DNA from: Deltaproteobacteria bacterium RBG_13_61_14
GTDB taxonomy: Bacteria > RBG-13-61-14
DNA: 5,932 nt
Assembly (NCBI GenBank): GCA_001797815.1
Contig: MGQK01000123.1
Location: 47,602-53,533 of the forward strand
Direction: 5' to 3'
Shown: positions 127 to 5,932 of the stretch, in pieces
Layout: every line of letters starts with the position of its first letter
How positions within the stretch are numbered: position 1 is the first letter of the stretch
The notes under the pieces: model-generated
Seen by the model: only the letters and a program-made list of their open reading frames with translations
Database searches by the model: none
Told to the model about the DNA's origin: nothing
Translations under genes and position numbers: made by a program

Positions 127-152
127 ATATCTGGGGTCAGACCCCAAATGTT
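126..152. repeat. Inverted repeat filling the gap between two convergent genes
   Basis: The core TGGGGTCAGACCCCA (132-146) has perfect 7-base arms around A139. With two mismatches per arm the symmetry extends to 13-base arms (126-138 and 140-152), from the last base of the upstream TGA into the trmFO stop codon. As RNA it can form a hairpin on either strand, so it may end or protect both converging transcripts. No U-tract follows on either side, so it is not a canonical intrinsic terminator. From memory, cores of the GGGGTCAGACCCC type recur as REP-like dispersed repeats in several bacterial groups. I could not check this. Confidence 0.6.
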
Positions 153-1443
153 AGATTAAGGATCGCAAGTGGGCCAGGGAACGCTCGACCAGTTTCGGTT
201 TGCGCTGGTGCTTGGGCCCCGGGCCGGCGAGGGGATCGAGGATGCCGAAGTTGGCGGCCATGGGCGAGAAGGGGCCTTCGCGCTGAGTTGTAACATATCT
301 TACTAATGCTCCGATCAGGGTGGTGGCGGGCAGGACCAGCGGCTCCCGGCCCAAGGCCCGGCGGCCGGCGTTGATGCCGGCGATGATCCCGGCGGCCGCG
401 CTTTCCAGGTAACCCTCGACCCCGGTGATCTGGCCGGCGAAGAAGAGGCGCGGGTCGCTCCGCAGGGAGAGGTCCGGGTGAAGCAGCGAGGGCGAATGGA
501 TAAAGGTGTTGCGGTGGACGGAGCCGAGGCGGACGAACTCGGCGTGGGCGAGGCCCGGGATCATCCGGAAGATGCGCTCCTGCTCGGGGTAAGCCAGCCG
601 GGTCTGGAACCCGACCAGGCTGTAGAGGGTCCCGGCCAAATCGTCCTGCCGAAGCTGCACCACCGCGTAGGGCCGCTGACCGGTGCGGGGGTCGGTCAGA
701 CCCACCGGCTTCATCGGGCCAAAGGCCAGGGTCTCCGGCCCCCGCTCCGCCATCACCTCGATGGGCAGGCAGCCCTCGAAATAGTTCGGCGCTTCGAATT
801 CGCGGAGCGGCACCTTGCGGCCCGCCAGCAGGGCCTGGTAGAAGCGCTCGTATTCTTCCCGGGTCATGGGGCAGTTCAGGTAGTCGCCGCCGCCCTGGTC
901 GTAGCGGGAAGCGCGGAAGGCGATGCTCTGGTCAATGGATTCCGCGGTGACGATCGGCGCGATGGCGTCGTAAAAGGAGAGCGCCTCGCGGTGGCAGAGC
1001 TCGCGGACGGCCTGGGCCAGGGCCGCGGAGGTCAGCGGCCCGGTGGCCACGATCACGATTCCCGCGGCCGGGATCGAAGCGGCCTCTTCGCGGACAATCT
1101 CCACCCCGGGCAGTTGCTCGACCGCGTGGGTCATGTGGTCGGCGAAGCGCTCGCGGTCCACGGCCAGGGCCGAGCCGGCCGGGACCCGGGTCTCTTCGGC
1201 CATAGCCAGGACCAGGGAGCCTAAAAGCTTCATCTCGGCCTTGAGCAGGCCGTGGGCGTTGGTCAAAGACTCGGACTTGAAAGAATTGGAGCAGACCAGC
1301 TCGGCCAGTTGCTCGGACTGGTGCGCGGGGGAGAAGCGATGGGGCTTCATCTCCAGGAGCCGGCAAGGAAGCCCGGCCGCGGCGATTCGGGCCGCGGCTT
1401 CGCAGCCGGCCAGGCCGCCGCCGATGACCGTGATCGGTTCCAT
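151..1443 (-). CDS. trmFO: Methylenetetrahydrofolate-tRNA-(uracil-5-)-methyltransferase TrmFO
   Basis: This cytoplasmic flavoprotein makes 5-methyluridine at position 54 (T-loop) of tRNA, taking the carbon from methylenetetrahydrofolate and reducing with FADH2. The 430-aa product is full length for the family (roughly 430-470). It begins with an FAD-binding Rossmann motif, GGGLAG at residues 8-13, followed by E15. C51 in VCSNSFKSE and C225 in YFEGCLPIEV correspond to the two functional cysteines of Bacillus subtilis TrmFO (C53 and C226). FAGQITGVEGYLESAA at 335-350 is the second FAD-contacting signature shared with MnmG/GidA. TrmFO is preferred over MnmG because of the length, the VCSNSFKS block and the absence of the extra MnmG C-terminal domain. 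The start ATG (1441-1443) directly precedes the Rossmann strand, so no earlier start is needed. It has only weak Shine-Dalgarno similarity, and I see no strong promoter in the preceding 60 bases. Read-through from the glycosyltransferase gene upstream on the same strand is possible across a 207-bp repeat-bearing gap. Confidence 0.96.
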   Translation of the reverse strand: MEPITVIGGGLAGCEAAARIAAAGLPCRLLEMKPHRFSPAHQSEQLAELVCSNSFKSESLTNAHGLLKAEMKLLGSLVLAMAEETRVPAGSALAVDRERFADHMTHAVEQLPGVEIVREEAASIPAAGIVIVATGPLTSAALAQAVRELCHREALSFYDAIAPIVTAESIDQSIAFRASRYDQGGGDYLNCPMTREEYERFYQALLAGRKVPLREFEAPNYFEGCLPIEVMAERGPETLAFGPMKPVGLTDPRTGQRPYAVVQLRQDDLAGTLYSLVGFQTRLAYPEQERIFRMIPGLAHAEFVRLGSVHRNTFIHSPSLLHPDLSLRSDPRLFFAGQITGVEGYLESAAAGIIAGINAGRRALGREPLVLPATTLIGALVRYVTTQREGPFSPMAANFGILDPLAGPGPKHQRKPKLVERSLAHLRSLI

Positions 1444-3650: not shown

Positions 3651-4508
3651 ATGGATGCGTATGTGTGGCAAGCGGTTTTACTGGGGATAATTCAAGGACT
3701 TACAGAATTTTTACCCGTCTCCAGTTCCGGCCACTTGGCCATTGCCCAGCACTTTCTGCCTGGGTTTAAACAGCCGGGGATTTTGCTGGACGTGCTCCTC
3801 CATTTCGGGACCCTGGTCGCGGTAGCGCTTTACTTCTACCGCGACTTGAAAGACTTGGTGCTCAACGTCGCCGTAGGGGCACGGCATGCCGTGCCCCTAC
3901 CTGAAAAGCCGGGCTGGCGGCTGCTCATCGGCCTGGTGGTCGCCTCGGTCCCTACCGCGGCGATCGGCCTGGTCTTGGAAGACCGGGTGGAGAAATGGTT
4001 CGAGTCGCTCTCGGCCGTGGGCGCGGCGCTGATCGGGACCGCAGTTCTGCTGGCGGCGGGTGAATTCGCGGCCCGCCGCCGGGAAAAAAATGTAGGGGCA
4101 AGGCATGCCTTGCCCCTACGCCAAGACCCCGGAATCGGGCAGAGCCTGCTGATCGGCCTGTTTCAGGGCCTGGCCGTGATCCCGGGGCTGTCGCGCTCGG
4201 GCTCGACCATCAGCTCCGGGCTTCTCTGCGGGGTGGAGGGCGTGACCGCGGCGCGGTTCTCGTTCCTGCTTTCGATCCCGGCGGTGGGCGGGGCCACGGC
4301 GATCACGCTGGTTAAGCACCTGGGCGAAATCCAGGCGGGCTCGGCCGGAGAGATCGCCGGGTATGTGCTCGGGCCGCTCATGGCCGCAGGAGTTGGTTAC
4401 GCCTGCATCGGGCTGATGATGCGGGTGATGAAGCGAGCGCGGCTAAGTTACTTTGCCGTTTATTGCGCGTTGCTGGGACTTGCCACTATGCTCGTGGCAA
4501 CTCGTTAG
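3651..4508 (+). CDS. uppP: Undecaprenyl-diphosphatase UppP (BacA)
   Basis: This integral membrane enzyme hydrolyses undecaprenyl diphosphate to the monophosphate carrier used for peptidoglycan and other envelope polymers; overexpression gives bacitracin resistance. The 285-aa product carries both family signatures: QGLTEFLPVSSSGHL at 15-29 with E19 and H28 (equivalent to E. coli E21 and H30), and PGLSRSG at 178-184 with S181 and R182 (equivalent to E. coli S173 and R174). The first Glu of the E. coli motif (E17) is Gln15 here, a common variant. About eight hydrophobic segments are present. The ATG at 3651 places the first signature where expected; no Shine-Dalgarno sequence precedes it and the leader is about 13 nt. 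Two perfect 28-bp palindromes lie in frame at codons 75-84 and 148-157 and add hydrophilic loop segments, making the protein slightly longer than the usual 260-275 residues. The first 25 or so codons are AT-richer than the rest. ftsK follows after 41 bases, probably in the same transcript. Confidence 0.95.
   Translation: MDAYVWQAVLLGIIQGLTEFLPVSSSGHLAIAQHFLPGFKQPGILLDVLLHFGTLVAVALYFYRDLKDLVLNVAVGARHAVPLPEKPGWRLLIGLVVASVPTAAIGLVLEDRVEKWFESLSAVGAALIGTAVLLAAGEFAARRREKNVGARHALPLRQDPGIGQSLLIGLFQGLAVIPGLSRSGSTISSGLLCGVEGVTAARFSFLLSIPAVGGATAITLVKHLGEIQAGSAGEIAGYVLGPLMAAGVGYACIGLMMRVMKRARLSYFAVYCALLGLATMLVATR
3873..3900. repeat. Intragenic 28-bp perfect palindrome, copy 1
   Basis: The half-site GTAGGGGCACGGCA (3873-3886) is followed directly by its exact reverse complement, with no central spacer. 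It starts at a codon boundary and encodes VGARHAVPL (residues 75-83) plus one base of the next codon. It falls in the loop after the second hydrophobic segment of UppP. No target-site duplication is evident. A second member of the same family lies 191 bp downstream at 4092-4119. Confidence 0.95.
4092..4119. repeat. Intragenic 28-bp perfect palindrome, copy 2
   Basis: The half-site GTAGGGGCAAGGCA (4092-4105) is followed by its exact reverse complement. It has the same reading frame as copy 1 and encodes VGARHALPL (residues 148-156). It differs from copy 1 only at positions 10 (C to A) and 19 (G to T), which pair with each other, so symmetry is kept. It lies in the polar loop between the RRR stretch and the segment leading to the second catalytic motif. 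Comparison from memory with typical UppP loops suggests about nine or ten extra residues here, matching the element. Confidence 0.95.
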
Positions 4509-4509
4509 C

Positions 4510-4518
4510 GGAGGAGGA
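4510..4518 (+). promoter_or_regulatory. Strong Shine-Dalgarno sequence displaced from the ftsK start
   Basis: GGAGGAGGA begins one base after the uppP stop codon (4506-4508). It is the only strong anti-16S match found near any start in the window. It is about 31 bases from the best ftsK start (GTG 4550), too far for direct initiation, but its first GGAGG is 6 bases from another GTG at 4521. That GTG opens a 9-codon frame (8 residues and TAG 4545-4547) ending 2 bases before the ftsK GTG, so ftsK may be translated by coupling or re-initiation. Confidence 0.5.
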
Positions 4519-4541
4519 CTGTGCACTTGGCACTGTGCACT
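4514..4541. repeat. Tandem heptamer repeat, second locus
   Basis: The units are GAGGACT, GTGCACT, TGGCACT and GTGCACT; the first is degenerate and overlaps the Shine-Dalgarno sequence. The unit matches the array at 1614-1648 in the same plus-strand orientation. It occupies most of the 41-base uppP-ftsK spacer, so it has probably lengthened the distance between the ribosome binding site and the ftsK coding start. Confidence 0.65.
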
Positions 4542-4549
4542 AACTAGCG

Positions 4550-5932
4550 GTGAAGCCAGCGGAAGCGGAAACGAGGTGGCACAAGCTGCGGCGGGAGATC
4601 GGCGCGGTCTTTCTCTTCTTCCTGGCCGGCTTTGGGGCTCTGTGCCTGTTCACCTATCACCCGAACGATCCCTCGCTCAATCACGTGCAGGACGAGGTCG
4701 CCCGGATCCACAACGCCGGAGGGGTGGTCGGCTCCTATCTCGCGGACATCCTTTACCAGGGCTTTGGCTTGGCCGCCTATCTTTTCGTGTTCCTGCTCGG
4801 GCTGCTGGCCTATTGGAGAGGGTTCAAGAGCGATGAGCCGATCTTCGGCCATTCCCGCGTCTGGCTCTTGGTGCGCGCGACCGGTTTTTTCCTGCTGCTC
4901 CTCGCTCTCTCCGCCTGGCTGGGGCTCTGGCCCAAAGAGTTCCTTCAAGCCGGCCAGCCGGTCACGGCCGGCGGCCTGCTGGGCGAGGTGCTGGCCAAGT
5001 CCCTGCGCGATTCGCTGAACCCGATCGGCGCCTATGCCCTGACCTCGGTCCTGCTCCTGGTCGCGGTGATGCTGGCCGGCAACCTCTCGCTCCGGGAGCT
5101 GCTCTCCACCCTGGGCCAGGCCGCGGACCGGCTGGGCGATGCGGTCTCCCAACTCTGGACCCTGGTCCAGGAGCGCCGACGCCGCAAGGCCGAGGTCCGG
5201 GTGGAAAAAGCGCGGCTCTTCCAGGCGCGCTCGCTGGCCGAGCCGGTCATCTCCGCCCCGGCCCGGCCGGAGAAGAAAAAGGCTCCGCCCAAGGAAGCGC
5301 CCAAGCAGGAAGCGTTTGACTTTGACGCGCGGCACGGCGCCTTCAAGCTGCCCCCGCTCAAGCTGCTGGAATCCGACGAGCAGGCCTCGGTGCCGGTGGA
5401 CCGCGACAGCCTGCTCATGAACGCGCGGCTCCTGGAGAAAAAGCTCCTCGATTTCGGCGTCACCGGCCAGGTGGTGGAGGTGATGCCGGGACCGGTCATC
5501 ACCATGTATGAGTTCCGGCCGGCCGCGGGGGTCAAGATCAACAAGATCGCCAACCTGGCCGACGACATCGCCCTGGCCATGTCCGCGATCAGCGTGCGCA
5601 TCATCGCGCCCATCCCGGGCAAGGACGTGGTCGGGATCGAGATCCCCAACAAGCAGCGGGAGATGGTTTACGTCAAGGAGATCATCACCTCCCGGGAATA
5701 CGACAATTGCCGGTCGCTCTTGCCCATGGCCATGGGCAAGGACATCGTGGGCAAGCCGTTTGTCTTTGACCTGCGCCGGTCGCCGCACCTCTTGGTGGCC
5801 GGCGCCACCGGCGCGGGCAAGAGCGTGAGCCTCAACGCCATGATCATGAGCGTGCTCTACCGCGCCACCCCGGACCAGGTGCGGATGCTGATGATTGACC
5901 CCAAGCGGCTCGAACTCTCGGTCTACGAGGGC
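4550..5932 (+). CDS. ftsK: DNA translocase FtsK/SpoIIIE, N-terminal 461 residues (runs off the window)
   Basis: This membrane-anchored, septum-localised hexameric ATPase pumps double-stranded DNA to clear chromosomes from the closing septum. Four hydrophobic segments (about 17-35, 69-89, 104-125, 157-177) form the usual anchor. A charged Pro/Lys/Arg linker follows (about 205-260), shorter than in E. coli. The alpha domain and RecA-like motor then begin: RIIAPIPGKDVVGIEIPN at 350-367 and Walker A GATGAGKS at 418-425 (K424, S425). MIDPKRLELSVYEG at 448-461 is also a typical FtsK block. Walker B, the rest of the motor and the winged-helix gamma domain lie beyond the right edge; typical proteins have 700-800 residues. 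TAA at 4541-4543 closes this frame upstream, so GTG 4550 is the earliest reasonable start; it puts a short charged N-terminus before the first membrane segment. No Shine-Dalgarno sequence lies directly upstream. The gene follows uppP closely and probably shares its promoter. Confidence 0.94.
   Translation, partial: MKPAEAETRWHKLRREIGAVFLFFLAGFGALCLFTYHPNDPSLNHVQDEVARIHNAGGVVGSYLADILYQGFGLAAYLFVFLLGLLAYWRGFKSDEPIFGHSRVWLLVRATGFFLLLLALSAWLGLWPKEFLQAGQPVTAGGLLGEVLAKSLRDSLNPIGAYALTSVLLLVAVMLAGNLSLRELLSTLGQAADRLGDAVSQLWTLVQERRRRKAEVRVEKARLFQARSLAEPVISAPARPEKKKAPPKEAPKQEAFDFDARHGAFKLPPLKLLESDEQASVPVDRDSLLMNARLLEKKLLDFGVTGQVVEVMPGPVITMYEFRPAAGVKINKIANLADDIALAMSAISVRIIAPIPGKDVVGIEIPNKQREMVYVKEIITSREYDNCRSLLPMAMGKDIVGKPFVFDLRRSPHLLVAGATGAGKSVSLNAMIMSVLYRATPDQVRMLMIDPKRLELSVYEG

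Follow-up and report, generated by a model that had tools for sequence, protein, structure and literature searches.

Two palindromes that lie in frame in the uppP gene of the window (the whole stretch of DNA analysed here, 5,932 nucleotides) are probably two separately acquired members of a family of double-foot GTAG REPs dispersed in the genome, spread by a REP-associated tyrosine transposase (RAYT) and tolerated in loops of the enzyme without any function of the peptides that they encode. The in-frame palindromes had been observed in an earlier note on this DNA and are confirmed here (Table 1). Both are perfect over 28 bp, they are separated by 191 bp, and both are read from GTA in one shared frame, all as that note described; it is also correct that one frame is closed, as the frame starting at the second base opens with TAG, and the two open frames give peptides of the form VGAxxxxPL or RGxxxxAPT. 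The chance expectation for a perfect 28-bp palindrome is about 2e-5 per window and 0.02 per genome, compared with 62 exact-end copies observed in the host genome. Both uppP copies have GTAGGGGC...GCCCCTAC at their ends, and thus a 5' GT[AG]G foot and the complementary C[TC]AC 3' foot enclosing a long palindrome, the double-foot arrangement.

Table 1. The uppP gene and its two palindromes, in positions of the window.
Feature	Positions	Strand	Description
uppP (undecaprenyl-diphosphatase, UppP/BacA family), host of both palindromes	3651..4508	+	PF02673, TIGR00753, alignment to solved UppP 5oon/6cb2
Palindrome 1, double-foot GTAG REP	3873..3900	.	GTAGGGGCACGGCATGCCGTGCCCCTAC; core ACGGCATGCCGT; encodes VGARHAVPL, residues 75-83; length-variable loop
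Palindrome 2, double-foot GTAG REP	4092..4119	.	GTAGGGGCAAGGCATGCCTTGCCCCTAC; core AAGGCATGCCTT; encodes VGARHALPL, residues 148-156

The host open reading frame matches PF02673 (BacA) with an E value of 8.7e-74 and TIGR00753 with 192 bits, under the model cut-off of 217.5 and with nearly the whole model covered, and its product aligns to the solved E. coli enzyme; apart from the palindromes it is, as judged from its sequence, a normal UppP. By hydropathy and the alignment to solved UppP, the palindrome 1 peptide lies between hydrophobic stretches 41-66 and 87-113, the palindrome 2 peptide lies between stretches 116-142 and 160-181, and both are distant from the catalytic motifs EFLPVSSSGH (19) and PGLSRSGST (178). 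The earlier note had placed them in polar loops, and their location outside the hydrophobic stretches and at a distance from the catalytic motifs is borne out, but the nine-residue peptides are not themselves polar (mean hydropathy +0.6 to +0.7). Loop 1 has 30 residues here, 34 in two order-level relatives and 11-37 elsewhere; loop 2 also has 30 residues here, with 21-23 in the same relatives and up to 28 elsewhere, and in the alignment E. coli UppP lacks six residues opposite palindrome 2. Loop 2 therefore looks lengthened, by 6-9 residues relative to the order-level relatives and E. coli, and loop 1, with a net change of -4, has no demonstrable net insertion. At both loops the order-level relatives carry different residues, in agreement with the reading of the palindromes as insertions.

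The palindrome recurs throughout the host genome, as its description as a repeat family requires. The pattern GTAGGGGC-N12-GCCCCTAC has 62 copies with zero-mismatch ends in the assembly (4.74 Mb in 132 contigs, 95% complete, with the fetched part at 61% GC) and its reversed-pattern control has none, and a sister pattern, GTAGGGGCG-N10-CGCCCCTAC, has 118 matches at two or fewer mismatches and one in the reversed control. A search of the genomes of two order-level relatives for GTAGGGGC-N12-GCCCCTAC gave no copies. The self-complementary cores are of several types, namely the palindrome 1 core with its A/T variants, GGYTCGCGARCC, GACCGGCCGGTC and GCGATTAATCGC, and in the first of these types 32 of 35 copies keep a base pair where the core varies (C-G 20, T-A 9, A-T 3), so both arms change together. 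The exact palindrome 1 core is present in 21 copies in the fetched DNA, and two further copies of the palindrome 2 core were fetched, at C72 and C82. Less perfect GTAGGGGC hairpins also occur in the same genome as pairs with starts 31 bp apart, which resemble classical REP dimers (L051 5726/5757, L063 3961/3992 and L115 3001/3032), and the window itself contains an unrelated intergenic pair of 24-bp repeats, ACTGTGCAC...GCACTGTKCACT (1625-1648 and 4518-4541), that are 83% identical.

Most copies are found between genes. Among the 97 with fetched flanks, 89 lie outside coding sequence and eight inside, so that about 90% are intergenic by coding calls that come from a home-made codon model, are approximate, and would count frame-breaking insertions as outside. 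Since 79% of the fetched DNA is coding, the palindromes avoid genes, and the proposal of a protein-embedded family has to be given up; the accompanying comparison with Rickettsia palindromic elements (RPE) survives insofar as a repeat family is found in frame in protein loops, but this is not a protein-embedded family as such. For the intergenic copies the median distance to the neighbouring gene is 51 bp where its 3' end faces them and 120 bp where its 5' end does. Divergent gaps contain fewer copies (7 of 77) than their 21% share of intergenic bases would give. This placement is REP-like. Five copies are internal to genes, two in uppP and one each in L077, L071 and L088, and the genes that carry them look like membrane proteins; those other than uppP are a TPR/PMT-like membrane protein, a large protein without a Pfam match, and one with a weak transport-domain match. 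Three more copies lengthen C-termini, those of RibD, an arginase-family protein, and a protein that, on our reading of its sequence, we take to resemble prolyl-tRNA synthetase.

The exact 28-mer of palindrome 1 is found in many bacterial phyla among the matches listed, which include Nostoc, Chloroflexi, Acidobacteria, Planctomycetota, Omnitrophota, Nitrospirae, Desulfobulbaceae, Nitrosomonas, an archaeal MAG and others. Many of these hosts are MAGs, in some of which misbinned contigs are possible, and the element is also present in named strains, for example of Nostoc and in Nitrosomonas halophila. In other phyla, palindromes are in frame in TsaD (L182:3586-4593), MenE (L183:6311-7816) and RsmG (L155:2307-3011), where they give VGARHAVPL or VGAVREPPL, and the uppP peptide recurs in frame in unrelated proteins, namely TsaD, MenE and an AMP-binding enzyme. 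We did not find VGARHAVPL in the literature searched; a paper on HetR that contains GTAGGGGC was set aside, as the sequence is there in primers only. Viral contigs in IMG/VR (L366/L464 and L354/L467) carry in-frame palindromes in phage portal- or head-like genes whose relatives at 60-72% identity have none.

These genes also bear on the footprint of insertion. At the palindrome TsaD has nine more residues than the solved TsaD 6n9a, RsmG has two more than 3g88, and MenE has no net change relative to 6nj0, its residues being replaced, so simple insertion does not explain the MenE case. Together with UppP the net change is from about -4 to +9 residues, and this range lends no support to the unit of 27 or 30 bp suggested earlier. 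No target-site duplication flanks the 28-mer, as matches equal the shuffled expectation at lengths 1-11. We found no clean empty site among order-level UppP homologues, MITE paralogues or phage relatives of palindrome-bearing genes, and none when viral genes with in-frame palindromes (L354, L366 and L346) were compared with relatives 60-85% identical.

The association of the palindrome with RAYT genes is evident in other genomes. Among 386 genomes, a RAYT of the type in the planctomycetotal locus L182 is present in 40 of 55 with the palindrome and 56 of 331 without it (odds ratio 13, p ~3e-16, a value that is only a guide as the species are non-independent). In L182 itself the RAYT-like gene, which matches NCBIfam REP_Tyr_transpos with an E value of 6e-16, under the model cut-off, has GTAGGGGCGGTTCGCGAACCGCCCCTAC in frame directly after MPNHLH, and a second palindrome at its stop codon, where the GTAG provides the TAG. 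In a member of the Chlorobiaceae (L399), copies are located upstream of the RAYT gene, within it in frame, and downstream of it, and in-frame palindromes are also present inside the RAYT genes of L404, L406, L414, L419, L420, L423 and L431. Overall, a palindrome of 22 bp or more lies inside 24 of 31 RAYT open reading frames, mostly 10-27 codons past MPNH; not all of these palindromes are of the GTAGGGGC type. In genomes G151 and G224 the sole exact-end copy is the one within the RAYT gene. The genes that are flanked by REPs, or contain them, or both, have the NHxH, WQ and YIxNNP motifs. The identity of the 28-mer over many phyla, taken with the in-frame palindromes of the same kind in RAYT genes, supports horizontal spread of a REP-RAYT pair.

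The earlier pointer to a RAYT-type transposase was right, but no subclass 2.4-like RAYT matched in the host genome (95% complete) at E values up to 1e-8. A search with PF01797 recovered 19 Y1 genes there, all of other kinds, and no palindrome is present in the 1.5 kb fetched on each side of them. We therefore rejected the host's own Y1 transposases as the cognate RAYT; many are instead bounded by paired TGGGGTCAG repeats. The host copies look like orphans, as there is no such RAYT in the genome. In the product of one of the Y1 genes (L035), which is RAYT-like but divergent, the loop that follows the HuH motif contains a triple in-frame repeat, SEPDFRGAGAPR. The motif of the TGGGGTCAG repeats is also present in the window at 132-146 (TGGGGTCAGACCCCA), just past the stop codon of a trmFO-like open reading frame (151-1443, minus strand).

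The family, its copy number and locations, the frame used in uppP and the association with RAYT genes elsewhere are established by these results; we infer that a RAYT moved the host copies, that the hairpin was its substrate, and that UppP still works. The family consists of perfect 28-bp palindromes with fixed 5' GTAG and 3' CTAC ends and a 12-bp core that varies as a self-complementary unit. A TnpA_REP subclass 2.4 RAYT would recognise the hairpin in single-stranded form, together with its GTAG foot, and would copy or join it into new sites, where no target duplication arises. Most copies persist between genes, and the few within genes would be those whose effect on local length leaves the frame intact and whose site is a C-terminus or a loop tolerant of change; in uppP two insertions would have been tolerated in two extramembrane loops with no need for a function of the peptide. 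The transposase responsible for the spread would no longer be detectable in the host genome. For the role of the palindromes in UppP, neutral tolerance is most likely. Counting against this explanation are the absence of a subclass 2.4 RAYT from the host, the lack of a clean empty site, the MenE palindrome without length change, and the share of copies in MITE-like elements.

Some of the spread in the host has taken another route. Of 85 unique host copies, 30 are bounded by inverted repeats that exceed the 95% quantile of the null, where shuffled flanks would give 5%, and in 21 the repeats exceed the 99% quantile; many different terminal inverted repeat (TIR) sequences are involved. About a third of copies are therefore in MITE-like elements, and a part at least of the spread in this host was by other transposases. 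The MITE B copies that were checked are all 128-129 bp long; CTTAG stands at either end of one of them (L099) and occurs singly in a related stretch (L092), which thus resembles an empty site. The palindrome is present in each of the six well-matched MITE B copies, with a different core in one, and at two loci of the same genome (L449 and L462, at C76 and C41) the family B TIRs enclose a single-foot GTAG hairpin, GTAGGGCGGGT..ACCCGCCC, in place of the double-foot palindrome. MITE A halves are found in varied left and right combinations around the same palindrome (L036, L042, L051, L057, and L073 around 3001), as though recombination had joined them at the palindrome. A family D element (L051, ~5500-5580) has its palindrome split at the centre by another palindromic repeat, CTTCGGCGAGCTCAGTCGAGCCG.

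It could be, and we put this forward tentatively, that in the host lineage REP palindromes are swappable cargo of TIR-bounded MITE shells that ordinary transposases spread without a RAYT of their own: there are many TIR families, mostly of ~100-160 bp, each with a double-foot REP, and one TIR type can have differing cores or a single-foot GTAG hairpin. The arrangement is possibly new, no description having come up in literature searched on other points, and if confirmed it would give REPs a second means of spreading. It is unlikely that the palindromes spread here mainly as passengers of such elements, moved by unrelated transposases, with bare copies such as those in uppP as remnants of shells lost by recombination or deletion. 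The bounded copies and the uniform MITE B elements favour this, but neither uppP copy is bounded by above-threshold inverted repeats, bare copies are the majority, and the association with inverted repeats is weak in other genomes, where 22 of 131 pass the 95% quantile and 4 the 99% quantile.

We consider it quite improbable that the hairpin or the VGARHAVPL peptide is selected in UppP, for example in translation control or as a new interaction loop. Both uppP copies are perfect, share a frame and leave the gene open, as such a role would have it, but the occurrence of the same peptide in unrelated proteins of other phyla points to insertion and not to a function, three internal host copies are in other genes, and the loop 1 length varies widely across the family. 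An artefact of assembly or binning, for which the fragmented assembly might speak, can hardly be credited with more than 60 copies over many contigs in differing contexts, with two uppP copies that differ in core, or with the same element in named strains. UppP (twice) and TsaD, MenE and RsmG of other genomes are clear cases of REPs in frame within conserved enzymes, and they make the long-open questions of REP insertion, its footprint and its tolerance by genes testable through near-identical strains.

Among known systems, TIRYTs (TIR-flanked Y1 transposase genes, PMC3733652) resemble the many host Y1 genes with paired TGGGGTCAG repeats, but there is no relation between the TGGGGTCAG repeats and the GTAGGGGC palindromes. 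RPE share with the present family a palindromic repeat that is in frame and tolerated in protein genes; however, RPE-4 and RPE-6 are placed with CGTC-type repeats (PMC3733652), a listing that sets them apart from this GTAG-type family of many phyla. Closer are the intragenic GTAG REPs, short palindromes that lie mostly between genes but in some cases are read in frame in unrelated genes, sometimes two to a gene, and that have themselves been likened to RPE (Di Nocera 2013, PMC3733652); in these the GTAG is unpaired at one end, whereas the present palindromes are paired at both ends, with no unpaired loop. The best match of the uppP palindromes is to the published double-foot GTAG REPs of TnpA_REP (RAYT) subclass 2.4, or Bertels group 4, with which they share a 5' GTAG and complementary 3' CTAC, a long GC-rich palindrome, linkage to RAYT genes with NHxH, WQ and YIxNNP, and in-frame copies between HuH and Y in the transposase gene itself (PMC6006769), so that the palindrome just after the HuH motif is already in print. 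The present family differs in a host genome without a detectable RAYT, in copies that are also in MITE-like shells, and in two copies within one membrane enzyme gene. REPs without a RAYT gene in the same genome have been reported, a cognate RAYT being usual but not defining (PMC6006769), and because REPs of this sort are described in both PMC6006769 and PMC3733652, the uppP case belongs to a known kind.
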